Assembly (NCBI GenBank): GCA_032622095.1 | Contig: CP136069.1 | Location: 187,415,122 to 187,479,121, forward strand | Source of the DNA: Siphonodentalium dalli | Lineage: Eukaryota; Mollusca; Scaphopoda; Gadilida; Siphonodentaliidae | Reading direction: 5' to 3' | Length of the DNA: 64,000 nt | Part shown: positions 2,647-35,600 of the stretch, piece by piece | Layout: each line of letters begins with the position of its first letter | How positions within the stretch are numbered: the stretch's first letter is position 1 | Notes under the pieces: model-generated | What the model was told of the DNA's origin: nothing | Databases searched by the model: none | What the model saw: only the letters and a program-made list of their open reading frames with translations | Program-made: the position numbers and the translations under genes

Positions 2647-5600
2647 GTAAGTACCATAACAAATTCTAATTTTCTTTTTTAAATGGATTCATCCATTCAG
2701 TTATAAAAGTATACATTGTAACAAATGTGGTTGATGGGACCATGTGGTATTCAGTTTACAATAAAAAAAATTCTGTCGTAAAAATAAAAACTGTTTAAGC
2801 ATGACAGAAAGTCTTTCCGTGGCTTATTTACAAAACTGATAATGACAATAAATGTGTCACCGCTATTACGTGCATTAAATAAATGCATGGAAAGTAAGCA
2901 CAGATTACGTGAACAGAGGAATTTTAGCAATGCATTCATGAAAGGGGTTCCAGGGACGAAATTTCCTACTAGTATCTTTTAGTTCTAGCGCCTACTACTG
3001 TAATATGACAATGCCTACCATTACCTAGCCTCTGCCCTCTGGTATGATAGTCATTGATATGATTGGGAAAGTTGGGTTCCAAATAGCTTGGATTAAGTTG
3101 TATATTAATATAATATAAAAAATTCAAAATCAAATTCAGATATCTAACTTATTAATTATATATTTAATATTAATAATTGTTAGCTGTTTTTTTCTCACAA
3201 AATTAACCCCAAAACAAACAACAAATTATGTTTAAGGGTCCATTTCAAGAGATTTAAACATTGCTATGCAATTCCTCAAGAGTGCTATGTAATCTCCAGT
3301 TATGCTTAGCAGTTTTCTATGCATACATTAAAAAGTAATCGGGCCCTGATTACTGATGTGATATCGTTGTGCTTGAGCATAATTGTGACCTGCCATATCA
3401 AATCCAGTCGGACTTGGTTAAGAGAGGTTTATGTCTGTCAGATGGACTTGGTTAAGAGAGGTTTATGTCTGTCAGATGGACTTGGTTAAGAGATGTTTAT
3501 GTCTGTCAGATGGACTTGGTTAAGAGAGGTTTATGTCTGTCAGATGGACTTGATTTACAACATTTGTCTATTCCAAGTTTTCTTCGACGTAAACTAGCTA
3601 GTGAAATTAGTTGGGGTTATGCTGTTTAACCCTTTGAGTGCCAGGTCCGATTTTTGTATCAACCCATATACCATGTGCCAATGCATTCTCTTATATATGC
3701 GAGTCGACCATAGGTTGCCTCGCATATATAAGAGAATGCATTGGCCTAACAATTTTTCATCATTTGTTATTATTAATAATTTTTTCTTATATTTTTTAAC
3801 AGACTTATTTTGTAGGTTTTGTGCCAGGGAATCTTACGTTTTTCATGGGCATAAACATTATTACTATGAATACTTGGTGATAGTTTTGAGTTATAACATG
3901 CCCCTAACGTTTTATCCAGTTTGTTTTTAAATTTGCTATAGCATGCTTAAGCATACCCAAAAAAAATTCAACCCAAAAAGATCTAAAAAAACAAAAATTA
4001 TATTTTCATTTTTTAGGGCCGATTTTACATTTCCTTAAATTAGGGCCGATGAGATCGGCCCCTGGCACTTAAAGGGTTGATGTTGAATCCCCAATTATTG
4101 TAAAAATATGTCACAATTGAGAAAGTGGTTTATTCCACAGAAAATGTTATATATGTTGTGAACTCCACAAGAGTTGGCAACTGAATGTAGTAATGTAATA
4201 TGAAAAATATATTTTCTCACATTGTTTACATAAATACCAACTCATTTGACCTCATGAAGTGACATTGAATTAAATGTAAACAAAGCATGTTACTCGTAAG
4301 TATGTGGCATATTATTATATGTGCAATTTAACATGAAAGTTAGATTATAATACAACATTATGACAGTAAGATGTCACTCTTTCCGAGTAAAATCAATTAA
4401 TACTGACAGAAAATCCTGGGCGTAAAGTCTGCTATAGAAAGACATATACTCAAGGTTTTTCGACGTAAATCAGCATTATCCCAACCGATTTCCTCAGCTG
4501 GTTTACGTCGAAGAAACTTAAACTACATGTGACATTTGGATTGTTGCTATAAATTGAAGGTATATGGATGACGTAAAAGCAACATATTAACAATATTATA
4601 ATGGATTACCTTGATACTAAATTGAAGTCACATACCATAAGAATTTGTATTAAATAGGGTGATCAGATATAAATGGAGAATAATCTTGTTCAAAGTAGTA
4701 AATTCTACAAATATTATATCCATATTGACAACACACACCGTCATTCTTATATATTAATTAAATGCAATCACTCTCGATGGCGAAATCGTTTTCGTTTGTT
4801 TATCGCCGATAGATGAGTCCAGAATCAAGTAGTAAATATTTACAATTCAGCGTAGTTCTGACAATGTTTTCTATGGAGTGGTAAGGTCGATTTGCTTCAG
4901 ATTTTCGGTGATGATAGTAGAATGCTACATTCCTCCAGTTGGCATAGCGCCTGATTACTAACTGATCAGTTTCACCCGAACAAGAACATAAAATGTCTTT
5001 AAAGTATTATAGAAAGCACTGATTCTAACCCAGTGGTAAAACCTAAATGAACATGTGGGGATGAAAACTGTAAGTTAGCCAATTCAATTTATACAGGTTG
5101 GAATCTTGAGGACCTCAACATCTAGCCAATTTACCAGATCATTCTTGCCAGCGTTAAATTTGTCTTGAAATAATCCAATCAGGTTGTCTTTTTCAGGGAG
5201 AATTTCGAGAAGAGAATTTTGACACAGCGATGAACGTCCTTAAAGATTCCGGGGATGCTTCGAAGGGAGATCAGCGAGGGAAGAAGGGAGGCTCGAAAAG
5301 TAAGTAAGGGAGATCAGCGAGGGAAGAAGGGAGGCTCGAAAAGTATGGTTCTCTCTCATTCATCAGTCCAAGCCTTGAAATAGTGTCTGGTTATTCAGCC
5401 TTCATAATTGGCTACGGCAATAAGCATTGCCGAAGCAATTTGCTGAAGCAAACTGGGCCACGGCATACTATTGCCGTAGCGGATTGCCGAAGCCAAACAA
5501 TCTGAATTAAGAGGGCTGGGTTATTTGCAGAATGAGGTCTCTGGATGGTGAATTTAGTGACGCTACCACTTACAGCTGGTTAGCATCACTAAATTCACCT

Positions 5601-11600: not shown

Positions 11601-14600
11601 AAAGGGTTAATACCATTATACACATATTTATTCATGATCTACGATATTATTTCTATTTTAGAGGAGGAGAAGGCTCTGGTGGATGAGGTATTTAACAATG
11701 CTGTAGAATCTTTGTCGGAAGAAGACAAAAAGTTACCTCAGGTATTTAACTTACTTTCACAAGGTCTGGTTGTTCTTTAAAATTTACAATGAAATACTAT
11801 TTCCACAAATAAATTTCGGTTGAAATAAGTGACGAAAGCAGTGTCCCGAGAATGCAGCATGCTTTCCGTTTTTCTATGTCGCTGTGGGGCGACGGGCAGC
11901 TGTCAGTGTGTGTGTAGCATTATGATGATCTGTTGACCTACATCTGTATTTATTTTCAAGTTTTTATGTGTGCTTGTTATAATGCAGTGCGTATGTATTT
12001 TATATTTTCAAGTTTTTATTTGTGCTTGTTTATTCAGCACAAGTATAATGAAGTGTGCATGTAGCTGTGTGAATGTATCCATCTGAGAGAACTTGTGTGT
12101 GTTTAATGTTGACATTGTGTGCCTGTGGGAGAATGTTTGGATGAGTGTGTGTGTTTAATGTTGACATTGTGTGCCTGTGGGAGAATGTTTGGATGATTGC
12201 TTGTGTTTAATGTTGACATTGTGTGCCTGTGGGAGAATGTTTGGATGATTGCTTGTGTTTAATGTTGACATTGTGTGCCTGTGGGAGAATGTTTGGATGA
12301 TTGCTTGTGTTTAATGTTGACATTGTGTGCCTGTGGGAGAATGTTTGGATGATTGCTTGTGTTTAATGTTGACATTGTGTGCCTGTGGGAGAATGTTTGG
12401 ATGATTGCTTGTGTTTAATGTTGACATTGTGTGCCTGTGTGAGAATGTTTGGATGATTGCTTGTGTTTAATGTTGACATTGTGTGCCTGTGGGAGAATGT
12501 TTGGATGATTGCTTGTGTTTAATGTTGACATTGTGTGCCTGTGGGAGAATGTTTGGATGATTGCTTGTGTTTAATGTTGACATTGTGTGCCTGTGGGAGA
12601 ATGTTTGGATGATTGCTTGTGTTTAATGTTGACATTGTGTGCCTGTGGGAGAATGTTTGGATGATTGCTTGTGTTTAATGTTGACATTGTGTGCCTGTGG
12701 GAGAATGTTTGGATGATTGCTTGTGTTTAATGTTGACATTGTGTGCCTGTGGGAGAATGTTTGGATGATTGCTTGTGTTTAATGTTGACATTGTGTGCCT
12801 GTGTGAGAATGTTTGGATGATTGCTTGTGTTTAATGTTGACATTGTGTGCCTGTGGGAGAATGTTTGGATGATTGCTTGTGTTTAATGTTGACATTGTGT
12901 GCCTGTGGGAGAATGTTTGGATGATTGCTTGTGTTTAATGTTGACATTGTGTTCCTGTGGGAGAATGTTTGGACTTGTGCGTGTGTTTAATGTTGACATT
13001 GTGTGCCTGTGGGAGAATGTTTGGATGATTGCTTGTGTTTCATGGTGGCTGGACTTATTATTTACTTTCCTTTCTATATATTATGTTATAATTTTATTGT
13101 AAATTGTATATTTAAACCATACTCTCCTAGCTGGAGAAAATAAAGATATATTTTATAGTTATATTCGTCTTATCGCCGAACAAAGATGCACTAATTAAAT
13201 CTGGCGGTACGCTTATTCAACAGTACGAAACTACAATACATGCATACATTGATATTTTCAGCGACAGTTTCGAATCACCGTAAAAATTATCATTTACAGT
13301 CTTATCTATATAATGGTACATGTATTATGTCTTATTAATATTCCAAGTTTTAATTCTTATTATACCGTGTTTTATCTATGTTATTTATATTTTATTTGGT
13401 ACTTTATTGAATAAAGTTAAATTCAATAATGGTTGTGTTTTGACAACTCTGTCAATTCATTCCAATCGTAGTGCGATTTTCTATATTTGGTACTTTATTG
13501 AATACAGTTAAATTCAATAATGGTTGTGTTTTGACAACTCTGTCAATTCATTCCAATCGTAGTGTGATTTTCTATAAACCGAACACCTCTCTAAACCAAA
13601 CAGAAGGGCTGATTCGAATGGTGTTTGGTTTGCTGAGGTTTTACTGTATAATAATTTTCGTCTGCCTTTCTCGATTTCCTGATGGTAATAATGCATCAAG
13701 GTAGTTTTTATTTTCAGGTAGAACTGATTGTAATAATGCATCAAGGTAGTTTTTATTTTCAGGTAGAACTGATTGTAATAATGCATCGAGGTAGTTTTTA
13801 TTTTCAGGTAGAACTGATTGTAATAATGCATCAAGGTAGTTTTTATTTTCAGGTAGAACTGATTGTAATAATGCATCGAGGTAGTTTTTATTTTCAGGTA
13901 GAACTGATTGTAATAATTCATCAAGGTAGTTTTTATTTTCAGGTAGAACTGATTGTAATAATGCATCAAGGTAGTTTTTATTTTCAGGTAGAACTGATTG
14001 TATTAATGCATCAAGGTAGTTTTTATTTTCAGGTAGAACTGATTGTAATAATGCATCGAGGTAGTTTTTATTTTCAGGTAGAACATGTGCTGCCATTATT
14101 GAGGAAGGGCTTTGGTATACATCATTCAGGGTTACTTCCCTTACTCAAAGAAACTATAGAAATTCTCTTCTCAGAAGGACTCATCAAGGTAACTATGACA
14201 AATGTACTCTTGAGACTGTTTACAACCCTTTGTCATGAATTATACTGAATTATTATTATCATATGTGCTGTTTGCCTCTTAACAAATTGTCGTGAATATT
14301 ATAATGTCTTATTCTCACTGGCAATAATTGCAACTGAAAGATTTGCCATCATAAAATCAAAAATATTAATTATTATTCTCATCTATTCTCATTGATTCAG
14401 AAACAAATATTGTCTGAAACTGAAATAATTTTTTTTGTTTGGCTTTTGCAATCATTCACCAAACATTTTTCTAACAGGTCAAACCTAATGGAATTCAAGC
14501 TCATTTAGGACCTTTTGCGACAATTTTCAGTATTTAACCCTTTCTATACTGAAAGGATTCTTCCATGCAGCTATAAAAGTATATGTTGGAATGGTCTATT

Positions 14601-23600: not shown

Positions 23601-26600
23601 GTATGTATCGTATCATTATACCCCCACTTTCGAAGAAAATGGGGGGGTATACTGGATTGACTCTGTCCATCCGTCCGTCCGTCACGCTTTCTCTACGTCC
23701 GTTTGTCCGTCCGTCTGTCCGATCTCATAACTTGAACAACTATGAACCGATTTCAATGATTTTTTGTATGCAATCTCCTTAGGAAGGTCTCTCCGCATGA
23801 TGCTAATTGCTAATGACTTTTTTTTTCAAGTTACGCCTCTTTTTCGACTTATTTTAACTTAGAAAATTCTTTCCGACTTAATAACTTTAACAAATATGAA
23901 CCGATTTCAATAATTTTTGGTATTCATGCTTCTCACAATAGCCTCTCTACATGATGCGGCTAGGGATTGGCTCAGACTGTTTTTCGTAATATTACACCTC
24001 ATTTTCGACTTATTTTGACTTAGAAAATTCTGTCTGACTTAATAACTTTAACAAATATGAACCGATTTGAATAATTTTTTCTGTACAAGCTTCTTGTGAC
24101 ACCATATCGATATTATTAGTCCGAATTTTTCTTTAAAGTTAAAAATCTTTTTGGTTGAGTTTACGGATAATGCGGGTTGAATTTGCCATGGTGGGGGTAT
24201 GCTAGCACTCGAGTGCACACCTCTTGTTGATCATGTATTGTGATTCATATCATATCATGACCAAGTGTATCTTGTAGCCCTACAAAGCATCAACCCTTTC
24301 ATGGCGGGAGCTGCAATGGTGCCACATTAAAGATCCTGTGCCAGTGCATTCTCTTATATAAAGCCTCATAGGGAGCCTCATATATATTAGAGAATGCACT
24401 GCCTTAAAAGGTCAAGGTAAATATTGTTAGGCCAATGTATTCTCTTATATATGTGAGGCTTCCTATGGGAGACTCGCATATATAAGAGAATGCATTGGCC
24501 TAACAATTTTTTACAATTTTAATAATTTTTCTTGTATTCTTTAACAATTTTATAAGTTCACCCATATAGAGCCCCAGACAAACATGAGCAGACGACACTC
24601 TTCTATATGCTTCTATATATGTGTGGGGCTCCCTGCAGGGTAATGGATGTTTTTTAATTTATTTCCTAAAAATTGTCAGAAACATTTATTTTTTAAAAAT
24701 GATAAAAAATTGTTAGGCCATTACATTCTCTTATATATGCTAGGCGACCTATGGTCGACTAGCATATATAAGAGAATGCATTGGCACAGGGTTTTTCGCA
24801 AAATTTCAGGATGCTCCAGTCATGGAAGGGTTAAATACTTTCCAACATCTTTTTTAATGTCTGTTTTCTTATTATTCAGAGTTAAAAAAATCTGAAGATG
24901 AGTACAATAGCATAGCGATAGAGAGTGAAGACCAGGTTATGTCATACTATAAGATCAGGCAGCAGTTAAACAATCTCGGTCGGGAGCTTGTGTCCTTCAT
25001 ACAGAAACCACAGTACATATTACCATTCATGCAGCCAGGAAGGCTTATAAAGGTATTTACTAGCATAACACTTTCTATACTAAATACTTATTGTTGAGTA
25101 ATTGCCTCAGGAAATGTTCAGATAATATTATAAAGAAATTCAACAAATGACCTGGTTGTTTGTTTAACCCTTTACCCAACAGAAGGGCCCTGTGCCAATG
25201 CATTCTCTTATATATGCGAGTCGACCATAGGTCGCCTCGCATATATAAGAGAATGCATTGGCTTAACACATTAAAAATTATAAAATTGTTAAAGAATGTA
25301 AGAAAAAATGGTAAAAAGTGTTAAAAAAAGAGTTTTTTTAGGCCAATGCATTCTCTTATATATGCGAGGCGACCTGTGGTCGACTCGCATATATAAGAGA
25401 ATGCATTGGCACAGGGCATAACTGTAACTATCACAATGTGGTCAAGGAGCCGGTTCCAATGATATCCATATTTGTATGGTTCTATTGAGACAGACCGAAG
25501 ATATTTTAGGCTGTTGGAAGCTTTATTTGGCTGGTTTTGGCCGGTTTGTTGGGTAAAGGGTTAACTTTATTATCTGAACATTTCCCACCAATTGTTAGTA
25601 ATTGTTCTGAACTTCTACTATCTTTTTGTCTTTTTGAGGCAGGTAAGAATCCAGTGATAATTTGGGGACGTCTGTTTCCAGCAGAGGATACATGTATCCC
25701 CATATAACATAATAAGGCTTCTGCACCGAACCAACAGATGCAGCAGATACATATATTATAAATATGACATAATATTTCTTATTTCAAAATTGAACATGCA
25801 AAAATAGAGGTAAAGGCTCTATTGCAAATGCAGATTTTTTTTTTATTTACGTAGCATATTGTTGAATTGCCTTGAAAAACTGGAAAATAATCCAGGTTGA
25901 CTCAATACTGTCCACTAGGAATTTGGGGACATTTGGGCTTCTCAAGTTTAGGTGCCCATATCTGTAACATGTATCGCAACCGCCCTTGATATTTCTCTGC
26001 GAGGTGTTCTCATTATTCTGAACACCCATCCAAATGAATACAATTATTTCAATATATACCGTTATGGGTGGGAGAATCCATTTAGTATAGAATCGGTTAA
26101 ACTGGATTGAAACACTCAGCTGGGGTTTTCAAACATGCATATTAAAAATATTTCTCAACACTTTATTTTCATAAATAACTTTTCTGGGTATTACATCGTT
26201 GATAAATATAGAGTCACAAGAAATCCCTAGGAAATCTGCGCCCGGTGTGCTGGAGCATAGATAAAGAGTACAGTTAGTATGTCATGAGCTCATGACGCCT
26301 GCTAATATGGAGGCACTTACTTAAATATGACGGCAGAAGTTACATCACAGAATTTCACGGAGCACTTAGCAGATCATCTGGTCCAGGAATGATATCAAAT
26401 TTTAGCTGAACCAAATTCTCTTTTTGAAGTTTGTATATAAAATGATGTTCTCTTGATCATGCATTTATAGGTGAAGAACGATGATGATGAATTTGGATGG
26501 GGTGCAGTCATCAATATACAGAAAAAAGCAAACCAATCAAAGGTAAATTCTGTCATAGAGTGTCACAATAGGTTCTTTATCTTAAGGTAAAGTCTGTCAT

Positions 26601-29600
26601 AGAGTGTCACAATATGTTCTTTATCTTAAGTTAAAGTATGCCATAGAGTGTCACAATATGTTCTTTATGTTAAGGTAAAGTCTGTCATAGAGTGTCACAA
26701 TATGTTCTCCATCTTAATGTAAAGTCTGCCATAGAGTGTCACAATATGTTCTTTATCTTACAGTAAAGTATGTCATAGAGTGTCACAATATGTTCTTTAG
26801 GCCAAAGCGAAAAATAGGTGTGTTTCCACTCCCATCCATAAAAAAAACAGGGGCGGGGGGTGGCTTTTCACTTTTATATTTTTTTTCCACTTTATCTTAA
26901 GGTAAAGTCTGCCATAGAGTGTCACACTATGTTCTTTATCTTAAGGTAAAGTCTGCCATAGAGGCTCACAATATGTTCTTTATCTTAAGGTAAAGTCTGT
27001 CATAGAGTGTCTCAATATTTTCCTTATCTTAAGGTAAAGTCTGTCATAGAGGGTCACAATATGTTCTTTATCTTAAGGTAAAGTCTGCCTTAGAGTGACT
27101 TCTTTATCTTAAGGTAAAGTCATAGAGTGTTACAATATGTTCTTTATCTTAAGGTAAAGTCTGCCATAGAGGGTCACAATATGTTCTTTATCTTAAGGTA
27201 AAGTCTGTCATAGAGTGTCTCAATATTTTCCTTATCTTAAGGTAAAGTCTGTCATAGAGGGTCACAATATGTTCTTTATCTTAAGGTAAAGTCTGCATTA
27301 GAGTGACTTCTTTATCTTAAGGTAAAGTCTGTCATAGAGTGTTACAATATGTTCTTTATCTTAAGGTAAAGTCTGCCATAGAGTGTCACAAAATTGTCTT
27401 TATCTTAAGGTAAAGTCTGTCATAGAGGGTTACAATATGTTCTTTATCTTAAGGTAAAGTCTGTCATTGAGTGTTACAACATGTTCTTTATCTTAATGTA
27501 AAGTTTGCCATAGAGTGTCTCAATATTTTCCTTATCTTAAGGTAAAGTCTGTCATAGAGGGTCACAATATGTTCTTTATCTTAAGGTAAAGTCTGCCTTA
27601 GAGTGACTTCTTTATCTTAAGGTAAAGTCTGTCATAGAGTGTTACAATATGTTCTTTATCTTAAGGTAAAGTCTGCCATAGAGTGTCACAAAATTGTCTT
27701 TATCTTAAGGTAAAGTCTGTCATAGAGGGTTACAATATGTTCTTTATCTTAAGGTAAAGTCTGTCATTGAGTGTTACAACATGTTCTTTATCTTAATGTA
27801 AAGTTTGCCATAGAGTGTCACAATGTTTTCTTTATTAGTCCAGTTTTTCAAAAACTCGACTTATGGTTTGACGAGGGACGGGCAGCGGCGGGGCGGACCT
27901 AAAGAATGCCTTATAACTTTGACATTTGTGAATGGATTCCAAAAATTTTTGTTGGTATGGCAGTTGCTACCAATGACTATTTACTGCCTGTAGAAAATGG
28001 GTCACGTCCGAACTTTTTTACAAGAGTTATCCATCTTAGATGGTTTTTAGTTAAGTTTTTCACCGATAGCGCGATAACTCACGCAAATATTAACCAATTT
28101 CAACAATATTTGGTATATGAGACTCTTCAAACAATATCTTGGACGAGTTCGAAAACCAGGTTTGTCCGAGAAAAAACATTCCGGAGTTATGGGTCTTAGT
28201 TTGTCTTTTAGCAAATTTATCACCGTTAGCGCGATAACTCAATGAAATATTAACCGATTTCAACAATATTTGGTATATGAGTCTCCTGCAACAATATCTC
28301 GGACGACTTCGAAAACCGGGTTTGTCCGAATTTTTTTTGCGGAGTTATGGGTCTTAGTTTGTCTATTTTAGCAATTTTATCACCGTTAGCACAATAACTC
28401 GATGAAATATTAACCGATTTCAACAATATTTGGTATATGAGTCTCCTGCAACAATATCTCGAACGAATTCGAAAATCAGGTTTGTCCGAATTTTTTTCGC
28501 GGAGTTATGGGTCTTAGTTTGTCTATTTTAGCAATTTTATCACCGTTAGCGTGATAACTCGATGAAATATTAACCGATTTCAACAATATTTGGTGTATGA
28601 GTCTCCTGCAACAATATCTCGGACGAGTTCGAAAACCAGGTTTGTCCGAATTTTTTTTGGTAGAGTTATGGGTCTTAGTTTGTCTATTTTTAGCAATGTT
28701 ATCACCGTTAGCGCGTTAACTCAATGAAATATTAACCGATTTAAAAAATATTGGGTATATGAGTCTATTGCAACAATATCTCGGACGAGTTCGAAAACCT
28801 GGTTTGTCCAATATTTTTTCCCGGAGTTATGGGTCTTAGTTTGTCTATTTTAATCACAATTTTATCACCGTTAGTGCGATAACTCAATGAAATATTAACG
28901 GATTCAATTGATATTTGGTATATAGGTCTATTGCAATAATATATCACCGTCCAACTTTTTTTCCCTGAGTTATGCACCTTATTGGCAGAAGTTTGGTTCG
29001 ACTGCCAAAAAACTCGACAAAAGCATCTTAGATGCGTACCCCTTGTCTTTAGGTCAAATCTGTCATAGAGGGTCACAATATGTTCTTTATCTTAAGGTAA
29101 AGTCTGCCATAGAGTGACTTCTTTATCTTAAGGTAAAGTCTGTCATAGAGTGTCGCAATATGTTCTTTATCTTGGTATATTCCCACTATATTCAATTTTC
29201 CTTCTGATTTTTACATACAATAGCTCTTCCCTTTCTAGTTAGAGGGTTCTTAACCCTTTCTATGCTAAATACTCATTGACAAGTAGTTCCCTAAGGAAAT
29301 GTTCAGATAATAAGTTCAACAAACGACATATGATGGGAGAATGTTGTTTCTGTGTATACATTTTCCACCAATGAATATGAAAATGTTCTTATATTATCTA
29401 TATTTTTTGTCTGTCATCTGCTGTTATTACCTGAAGACCCCTTCAAATGAATAATAGACCGTTCCAATGTGTACCTCTATGCCTGAAAGGGAAAAACCAT
29501 TTAGTATAGAAGGGGTTAACCTCCTCCTCACTGCTGTGCTAGTGCTGATGTTATTGCCATTTTCCAGTTGAAAAATATTGATCAAATATGTCAAATTTCA

Positions 29601-32600: not shown

Positions 32601-35600
32601 TTTATTTTCAATTTACCAGACCTGGGTGTGGGTGCGGTTTGGATATTCACACTCATCGGCAAACTATTTAATACTTCTTATACACAAGGCTCGCGCGGCT
32701 GTCAGAACGTTTCACTTTGAAACCGTTATATCTTGAAATATTAAGTCACAGCATATGATTCTATTTATTGGATATTATAGAGCTATATTCTCCCGACATA
32801 TAGCCGTTTTCCAATCGAAAATATATCCACGGGAACTTTGATTTATTCTCAATTTACCAGACCTGGGTGTGGGTGCGGTTCGGATATTCACAGTCATCGG
32901 CAAACTATTTAATACTTGTTATACACAAGGCTCGCGCGGCTGTCAGAAAGTTTCACTTTGAAACCGTTATATCTTGAAATATTAAGTCACAGCATATGAT
33001 TCTATTTATTGGATATTATAGAGCTATATTCTCCCGACATATAGCCGTTTTCCAATCGAAAATATATCCACGGGAACTTTGATTTATTTTCAATTTACCA
33101 GACCTGGGTGTGGGTGCGGTTGGGATATTCACAGTCATCGGCAAACTATTTAATACTTCTTATACACAAGGCTCGCGTGGCTGTCAGAACGTTTCACTTT
33201 GAAACCGTTATATCTTGAAATATTAAGTCACAGCATATGATTCTATTTATTGGATATTATAGAGCTATATTCTCCCGACATATAGCCGTTTTCCAATCGA
33301 AAATATATCCACGGGGACTTTGATTTATTTTCAATTTACCAGACCTGGGTCTGGGTGCGGTTGGTATATTCACAGTCATCGGCAAACTATTTAATACTTC
33401 TTATACACAAGGCTCGCGCGGCTGTCAGAACGTTTCACTTTGAAACCGTTATATCTTGAAATATTTAGTCACAGCATATGATTCTATTTATTGGATATTA
33501 TAGAGCTATATTCTCCCGACATATAGCCGTTTTCAAATCGAAAATATATCCACGGGAACTTTGATTTATTTTCAATTTACCAGACCTGGGTGTGGGTGCG
33601 GTTCGGATATTCACACTCATCGGCAAACTATTTAATACTTCTTATACACAAGGCTCGCGTGGCTGTCAGAACGTTTCACTTTGAAACCGTTATATCTTGA
33701 AATATTAAGTCACAGCATATGATTCTATTTATTGGATATTGTAGATCTATTTTTCCCCGACAGATACCCGTTTTCCAATCGAAAATATATCCACGGGAAC
33801 ATTGATTCATTTTCAATTTACCAGACCTGGGTGTGGGTGCGGTTGGGATATTCTCAGTCATCAGCAAACTATTTAATACTTCTTATACTGGCACGGTATA
33901 TTTGTTTGGTTCCTATTTTGTCGGTTCATAGATGCCGACCAAAATATTATAGCTGAGTTTAGGCGGAGAAAACTCAGAAAATTTTCGGAAGATTAGTTTG
34001 CTACCAGTTACCATACCTAAACAGAGTGTCTTGCTACCTGTCTTCCTTTTTAAATGTAAGTTAAGTTTTAAAACTTTTAATTTCGTTTATTTATCATTTC
34101 AGATTCAGGTTTTTTTTTAAATCATAAAAATTAAATTAAAATTTTTAAAAAGTTAAACTTTGAATTTAAAATTTAAAATTATAAACTTGCAATGAAAAAG
34201 ACAGTTTTATGGTGAATATTAGGCTGGACTGAGGATCTAAAAATGTGAAGGAAAAAAAAATTTAATTAAATTTTAAAATTAAAAAAATGAAATTTGAAAC
34301 GTGATATACATTGCTTATGAAGACATATCTAAGCAGCTGACTGCAAATTAATTAGTATAACAAGCCTTAAAGGGTAAACATACGAGCTGTGTTGTCACTG
34401 TGATTACCAGCATACCGGCCGTCAGCGTTAGTTAATTAGACAGCGCTGTCTAATTAACTAACGCTAGCGGCTGGTATGCAATAACCCAGTGCGGTTCAGA
34501 TGGCTCTGGATTTAGTCACAGTTAACTCGACATGTGCTTGCATTATTTGAATAAGTGTAAATATAAAAAAACCAATACGGTGCTTACTTTTAAAATCAAG
34601 GATCAAAGGACTAATCGCAAACTCCCTAATTAATAAAAGTAATTCAGTAATAAAAGTATACATCGGAATGGTCAATTATTCATCTGGAGGGATGTTCAGG
34701 TAATAAGGACAGATGAAAATATAATGCAAGTTCTGAGGGATTCAGACATTCCTATTAAATGGTGAACAGTTCCAAAGGGAACTGGCAGTACTTGTTAATG
34801 AGTATTTAGTATAGAAAGAGTTAATGCTGTTCTAATTTCAGCTCATCGAGGACACAGGACCTGTATATGTTGTGGAAGCATTGTTGCATCTGACTAAGGA
34901 GAGTGCACAAAGCAGGAATAGTACCATGATCAAACCATGTCCTCCAGGAGAAAAAGGGGAAATGCAGGTATGTCTCCTACACATCCCCCTCATCATCAAT
35001 AGTACCATGATCAAACCATGTCCTCCAGGAGAAAAAGGGGAAATGCAGGTATGACCCCTACACATCTCCTTCCCCACCTCTCATCAGGAATAGTACCATG
35101 ATCAAGTCATGCCCTCCAAGAGAAAAAGGGGAAATGCAGGTATGACCCCTACACATCCCCTTCCCCACCCATCAACAGGAATAGTACCATGATTAAACCA
35201 TGCCCTCTAGGAGAGAAAGGGGAAATGCAGGTATGACCCCCTACACATCCCCTTCCCCACCCCTCAACAGGAATAGTACCATGATCAAACCATGTCCTCC
35301 AGGAGAAAAAGGGGAAATGCAGGTATGACCCCCTACACATCCCCTTCCCCACCCCTCAACGGGAATAGTACCATGATCAAGCCAGCCCTCCAGGAGAGGA
35401 ACAGATCTATGATATTAAACACTGGTTAAGAAGTCATGGCCCTTTTTCTGGTGCCTCAGGTGCTTGAAGAAAAATACTAGTTTGAGTCAGACCAACTGAA
35501 CAATTTCCTTCAGCATACCCTACAGGCCACATCCCTCATCATCAAACTTCAACTCTGGATGGGAGCTCTCAAATTTATATGATTTTAGATGAAAAACAGC

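Follow-up and report, generated by a model that had tools for sequence, protein, structure and literature searches.

A nine-fold splice-acceptor array in MTREX of the scaphopod Siphonodentalium dalli and splice-junction arrays elsewhere in its genome

How is a splice acceptor chosen when nine equal copies of it stand in a row before one exon? The question is raised by MTREX, an essential RNA-helicase gene, of the scaphopod Siphonodentalium dalli (GenBank assembly GCA_032622095.1, contig CP136069.1), of which forward-strand positions 187,415,122 to 187,479,121 were analyzed. This stretch of 64,000 nucleotides is termed the window, and positions are counted from its first base. An initial annotation had read the locus as a possible isoform ladder, in which several of the nine acceptors would be used to give MTREX with 0 to 8 inserts of 15 residues before VEHVLPLL, and in which copy number could also differ between individuals.

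The MTREX gene and the array before exon e

MTREX exons were located using a human sequence as a ruler and were then refined by motif. Nineteen exons (a to s) lie within the window and, with the acceptor at 14078, were joined in one frame through to the stop codon; the gene is intact. The 10 kb before the window contain three further coding stretches of MTREX, and the exon behind the array, which had been labeled exon 5, is therefore fifth in the window only; it is called exon e here. It is 111 nt long and is flanked by introns of 2336 nt and 2822 nt. All 37 of its residues were aligned without gaps to MTR4 chains in the PDB (best E 5.7e-15, 6c90_A). On the showing of protein conservation the authentic acceptor would be the last copy in the array (14077|14078), and the conserved protein should need only the acceptor at 14078.

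Tandem Repeats Finder (TRF) returned an array at 13679-14084 with a period of 45, 9.0 copies, 97% matches, no indels and a score of 770. The motif TTTTCAG|GTAGAA occurs nine times at 45-bp spacing, the last copy being the true boundary of exon e, and the last intron bases of the nine sites are 13717, 13762, 13807, 13852, 13897, 13942, 13987, 14032 and 14077. The array spans the intron-exon boundary and carries the splice signals, all nine of equal score, inside its units, two features of the 'mirages' described from amphioxus. The eight full units translate as VELIV(I/L)(M/I)H(Q/R)GSFYFQ. The tandem run of nine 3' splice sites at constant spacing, as first annotated, was thus borne out, and so was the claim that the upstream units stay open in the exon frame, which runs without a stop from 13655 to 14245. 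The nine-fold acceptor array before exon e is confirmed as real. Features of the locus and of the other loci discussed are collected in Table 1.

When the assembly was searched with the DNA, the full stretch was found once, and the array is present as one copy in the assembly used. That the array has a wrong number of units or was mis-joined during assembly is highly improbable. It is known from a single place in a single assembly, and arrays are hard to assemble; against this, three kinds of unit change occur in irregular order, the flanking exons are in order, and similar arrays are found in unrelated genes.

Just upstream of the 45-bp array, a 91-bp direct duplication lies in 13393-13576. 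It is adjoined by approximately 50 bp (in 13600-13655) matching at least 33 dispersed genomic places at 81-92%. Kinship of the 45-bp unit with a 44-bp satellite on contig C4 (42.81-42.83 Mb, loci L002-L004; 65-70% identity) was considered and rejected as probably chance, since the unit of this long array is without the CAG|GTAGAA junction in the part read and the E-value was inflated by repetition.

Table 1. Features of the MTREX locus and of further loci with arrays at or near exon ends
Feature	Position	Strand	Description
MTREX exon b donor array	5263..5345	+	43 bp x 1.9 over donor 5299|5300; unit repeats exon end and donor
MTREX exon d	11662..11741	+	precedes exon e; ends KLPQ; donor CAG|GTATTT; intron d-e 2336 nt
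First unit of 45-bp array	13673..13717	+	slightly divergent: first six bases differ, one further change; acceptor CAG 13715-13717
Eight full 45-bp units	13718..14077	+	each ends TTTTTATTTTCAG; acceptors every 45 bp from 13762 to 14077; exon frame open
MTREX coding exon e	14078..14188	+	first six bases GTAGAA part of repeated unit; donor AAG|GTAACT
MTREX exon j donor array	26540..27835	+	44 bp x 29.9 over donor 26542|26543; AAGGTAAAG 22 times
MTREX exon k donor array	34968..35397	+	after donor 34967|34968; repeats exon end with donor
SKI2-like copy L006	C9 213.36 Mb		inverted relative to L007, about 0.69 Mb apart
SKI2-like copy L007	C9 212.67 Mb		inverted relative to L006
L028			donor-side array, 63 bp
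L032			donor-side array, 39 bp
L060			donor-side array, 75 bp
L057			donor-side array, 58 bp
L114	C2 214.699 Mb		donor-side array, 46 bp x 2.7
L088 with upstream neighbor L115	C8 150.238 Mb		acceptor-side array, 71 bp, 9.0 copies by TRF, eight exact acceptors
L063			acceptor side, two acceptors 154 nt apart (self-BLAST)
L105 (uncounted)			TRF array reaches match edge; unit without junction
L098 (uncounted)			copy of exon end at a distance of about 390 bp, 83.5%
L029 (uncounted)			73% copy near exon start
L055 (uncounted)			32-bp similarity to 26-bp array
L048, L065, L093, L100 (uncounted)			short low-score arrays, inside or near match

Splice-site strength and reading frame at the array

Acceptors were scored with a log-odds matrix built from the other 18 acceptors of the gene. 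The nine acceptors of the array scored identically, at 14.39, which was the highest value among the 19 acceptors of the gene. With scores equal, strength cannot decide between the nine copies and only position can separate them.

Recursive splice sites are zero-length exons in which AG|GT stands directly at the acceptor. Every unit boundary of the MTREX array has this form (CAG|GT), and the array might accordingly be self-erasing: an upstream acceptor would be used first and the remaining units would be removed as introns of 45n nt, giving a normal mRNA at any copy number. The boundary CAG|GTAGAA does combine an acceptor with a regenerated donor. Its donor part is weak, unlike that expected of a recursive site; the score of 5.62 is low and inside the range of the real donors of the gene, 4 of 18 of which (q, n, f and c) were lower in a leave-one-out comparison. 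Units of a SKI2-like acceptor array described below start with GTCGTT and likewise give AG|GT, but those of the RPT6-like (CAG|GGTGTG) and CCT-like (AG|AGTTAA) arrays do not, so that recursion cannot be a general rule, and at MTREX the last, authentic acceptor carries the identical motif. Removal of the units by recursive splicing is considered very unlikely.

The open frame through the units was compared with chance. The remaining plus-strand frames become open only at 14052 and 14065. Two minus-strand frames, at 13514-14002 and 13641-14144, also run through much of the array, and openness is therefore no peculiarity of the coding frame. When random intronic 45-mers were drawn from the window, 43% of 20,000 draws were open in one given frame; multiplied by one third for the period, this gives a chance of about 0.14, or about 1 in 7, for an array that is both in frame and open. 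Openness in about 14% of arrays is thus to be expected without a ladder. The tandemly repeated 45-bp unit is open in three of six frames; among random 45-mers, 48% are open in three or more. The eight full units differ by three Q-to-R changes, one M-to-I and one I-to-L, all of them nonsynonymous, which gives no sign of protein constraint and, for the ladder, counts if anything against it; these three kinds of change are too few to weigh. The stop-free, in-frame unit of MTREX is most likely a coincidence of this order.

Splice-junction arrays in the window and in the genome

Three more MTREX exons in the window (b, j and k) have arrays at their donors (Table 1). At exon k five intact GAAATGCAG|GTATG donors were found (34967, 35048, 35139, 35230 and 35322), with steps of 81, 91, 91 and 92; the first step is a multiple of three and was open when read by eye, and the remaining steps are out of frame. 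At exon j the units contain a donor-like AAG|GTAAAG, the array lies directly downstream of the donor, and it is interrupted once by other sequence. Arrays make up 16.8% of the bases of the window, and exon bases are strongly depleted in them (46 of 2234). Three of 37 junctions lay inside TRF arrays, that of exon k not being among them because its array starts past the donor, as against 6.2 expected from circular shifts of the window (P of three or more junctions in arrays, 0.95). Arrays in the window are therefore common, lie at splice sites no oftener than chance, and present no enrichment that needs explaining.

The assembly searched comprised 2.23 Gb in nine contigs. A profile for mollusc hemocyanin (PF14830), tried as a clade marker, gave no match, a result that carries no weight. 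A further 107 exon loci were taken from profile matches (51 of 53 listed for chaperonin, 20 of 20 listed for proteasome, 17 of 20 for AAA and 19 of 53 for DEAD), the match lists consisting of scored candidates only; two unscored chaperonin matches sit inside other loci. After removal of three loci taken as intronless (L008, L009 and L038, excluded solely for their long open frames) and of one member of each of nine pairs, 95 exons were kept. An AAA cluster at 163-164 Mb of contig C2 (L082, L083, L086, L087, L089 and L090) was not collapsed, and its members may not be independent. A junction-spanning array was found in 7 of the 95 sampled exons, five on the donor side and two on the acceptor side. 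The pair partner of the acceptor-side locus L063, L062, was read by eye and is without the upstream acceptor. Further loci with weaker resemblances were left uncounted (Table 1).

With the four MTREX junctions and a SKI2-like exon, which was found through its homology to exon e and stands outside the sample of 95, junction arrays thus occur on donors and acceptors of several genes. Sampling shows the genome to be rich in tandem repeats and the MTREX array to be one of many splice-junction arrays in it. Array cover was 7.7% at 400-1500 nt from the profile match (reached by 41 of the 95 loci), 6.4-6.7% at 200-390 nt, about 4% at 10-120 nt, 3.5% around the edge of the match and 1.2% within it, 30-60 nt from the edge. 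Match edges stand in for exon edges in these figures; taken descriptively, arrays appear to avoid junctions weakly, not strongly.

The SKI2-like, CCT-like, PSMB7-like, RPT6-like and BRR2-like names are our assumptions from motifs in the translations, the searches having given the family only. If the BRR2-like locus L114 is named rightly, a splicing factor gene itself carries a junction array. The RPT6/PSMC5-like units of L088 also contain, in each 71 bp, exon sequence through the Walker A motif.

The SKI2-like exon is paralogous to MTREX exon e (64% identical over 33 residues), and its intron matches that of exon e in position, 13 codons before IHHSG. Identity between its two copies is 93-96% in the two longest pieces of the alignment. 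The acceptor array has an 86-bp unit unlike that of MTREX, with five acceptors in L006 and four in L007; array length has therefore changed between the two, whether they are haplotypes or a duplication. Length polymorphism of the MTREX array is plausible given this difference between close copies. The end of the SKI2-like exon has a donor-side array as well, with 19/46-bp units.

What the upstream acceptors of these other arrays would encode bears directly on the ladder. In the SKI2-like array a stop follows all three upstream acceptors of L007 and all four of L006. The RPT6-like array has seven, each of which reaches a stop after 19 residues, and the single upstream acceptor of the CCT-like array (L063) leads to a stop as well. 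These genes therefore need the exon-proximal copy, and since their proteins need the last acceptor, splicing in this animal must be able to pick it among near-identical copies.

If upstream copies were used frequently, frame-shifting or stop-bearing arrays should be rare. Periods were compared in a set of 12 arrays chosen by the analyst (MTREX e, b, j and k, the SKI2-like acceptor array, L088, L063, L028, L032, L060, L057 and L114); exon k was entered with its TRF period of 91, and the SKI2-like donor-side array was left out for its compound period (19 and 46). The period was a multiple of three in 4 of 12 arrays, or 5 of 12 when the first step of exon k is taken instead, which is near chance, and three of the four acceptor arrays give stops. 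Among donor arrays, the 63-nt step of L028 and the 78-nt step that leads to the next intact donor of L032 both stay in frame and open; the step of L060 leads to a stop. In-frame open steps are thus not unique to MTREX exon e. Across arrays in general there is no sign that selection preserves the frame; the cases are few, and selection for openness may still act.

The isoform ladder, in which the use of acceptors might be regulated or vary with array length, is accordingly held to be unlikely. In its favor are nine acceptors of equal score, every one in frame and open, the similar open steps of L028 and L032, the differing copy number of the two SKI2-like arrays, and an overall preference for upstream 3' sites among human alternative pairs (PMC9225289, in the part of the report available). 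The stops in the three other acceptor arrays and the lack of a clear bias of the periods stand against it. What survives of the initial annotation is the observation that a conserved MTREX exon is preceded by nine equal acceptors, all in frame; the ladder drawn from it does not fare so well.

Among the sampled chaperonin exons nine pairs were noted (L010/L011, L018/L019, L021/L022, L023/L024, L030/L031, L034/L037, L062/L063, L071/L072 and L074/L075), the members of which lie tens to hundreds of kb apart on the same contig and are 95.5-99.4% identical over the longest aligned piece. This suggests uncollapsed haplotypes or recent local duplications.

Known junction arrays and the choice among equal sites

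The closest published cases are the amphioxus mirages in Adh3, TnC, BflGb6/BflGb9 and PGBD5, which in the available text of two reports (PMC3087553, PMC3902484) are minisatellite-like tandem duplications over an intron-exon boundary, many with AG/GT, on the donor or the acceptor side and with copy numbers that differ between haplotypes. The acceptor-side array of BflGb6 counts 6 units on one haplotype and 3 on another, and its authors take RT-PCR to suggest that regular splicing is undisturbed; they also state that the AG/GT signals of the units could act as cryptic sites and yield alternative, possibly aberrant transcripts (PMC3087553, same portion). The arrays of PGBD5, Adh and TnC are described likewise (PMC3902484, same portion), and these accounts of arrays without effect on regular splicing also argue against the ladder. 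The MTREX unit of 45 bp falls inside the range of 10-72 bp given for amphioxus Adh3 in the same available text. Unlike the amphioxus cases, the arrays of S. dalli reach about 30 copies on one donor, lie in a 2.23-Gb genome, affect 7 of 95 sampled exons and, at MTREX, comprise nine equal acceptors that are stop-free in the exon frame.

Internal tandem repeats of minisatellite size at human exon-intron boundaries can change splicing (PMC2812944, in the part available). Those are recent primate paralogs with transcript evidence, according to the same part, whereas the genes affected here are conserved and are known from DNA alone. NAGNAG and other tandem acceptors resemble the MTREX array in having several in-frame acceptors side by side, but NAGNAG steps are of three nt, and here the steps are of 45 nt and each unit holds a whole acceptor region. 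A search of open-access literature, as far as the texts were accessible, returned the amphioxus cases and the human boundary repeats, and no such report for another invertebrate was found. A VNTR in dog MCHR2 was rejected as a comparison because, in the text available, it is not about repeated splice sites.

The initial annotation had added that the first AG downstream of a branch point is usually favored. This holds most strongly for close AGs and short introns. In the accessible part of a study of human alternative pairs (PMC9225289), the upstream 3' site is favored overall but less so with long flanking introns, where the sites nearest across the exon are favored, so that the preference should be reduced at introns of the lengths found here. 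For full-strength donors the choice was exclusive in a minigene test of that study; for acceptors its data show the upstream preference as reduced, not reversed.

The reading preferred here, and a probable one, is that the MTREX array is a neutral acceptor-side splice-junction minisatellite of the mirage type, that exon definition picks the exon-proximal copy, and that the openness of the unit is luck. A 45-bp piece made up of CTGAT, which we take to be a branch-point-like motif, a pyrimidine tract, CAG and the six bases that start the exon would have been duplicated in tandem, and the array may have grown through unequal exchange or slippage. The eight upstream acceptors would then be equal decoys. 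Across the 111 nt of exon e, the spliceosome would pair the exon's donor with the closest acceptor, and most MTREX mRNA would be normal, with leakage to upstream acceptors possible. A stop-free unit would then limit the harm of an occasional wrong choice and would not make it useful. Exon definition in favor of the last acceptor is argued from the equal scores, the short exon, the long introns and the human proximity data. Several points weigh against the preferred reading: the equal scores give no reason of strength for skipping the first eight acceptors; in the accessible part of the human study (PMC9225289) long introns only reduce the upstream 3' preference, the clean minigene result being that for donors; the amphioxus authors allow for cryptic use of the repeated signals; and in-frame open steps occur in other arrays.

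A joint account would combine these elements. In it, a few per cent of essential-gene junctions would lie in self-arrays of 2-30 copies, the exon-nearest copy would win on both sides, possibly with AG|GT re-splicing, and the MTREX array would be a nine-rung read-out leaking a graded protein ladder that varies between individuals. Taken as a whole this is unlikely.

Choice among identical splice sites has usually been studied in engineered minigenes. The arrays offer natural cases at both kinds of site, donor and acceptor, equal in sequence and graded by copy number, within genes whose splicing must be correct. Should RNA confirm the choice, proximity rules could be measured directly. On present evidence the MTREX array looks like a natural test of choice among identical sites rather than a proven switch. 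Splice-junction minisatellites, described from amphioxus, are extended by these arrays to another, much larger genome. For annotation they carry a warning, as tandem repeats can lead splice-aware aligners to false junctions (PMC10632439, in the portion available).

Six of the nine MTREX units also contain an internal donor-like AAG|GTAGTT (score 7.64), at 13701, 13746, 13836, 13926, 13971 and 14016. In the other three units an A to G change turns it into GAG|GTAGTT, with a score of 2.47. Micro-exons of 28 nt arising from the internal donor-like sites are conceivable.
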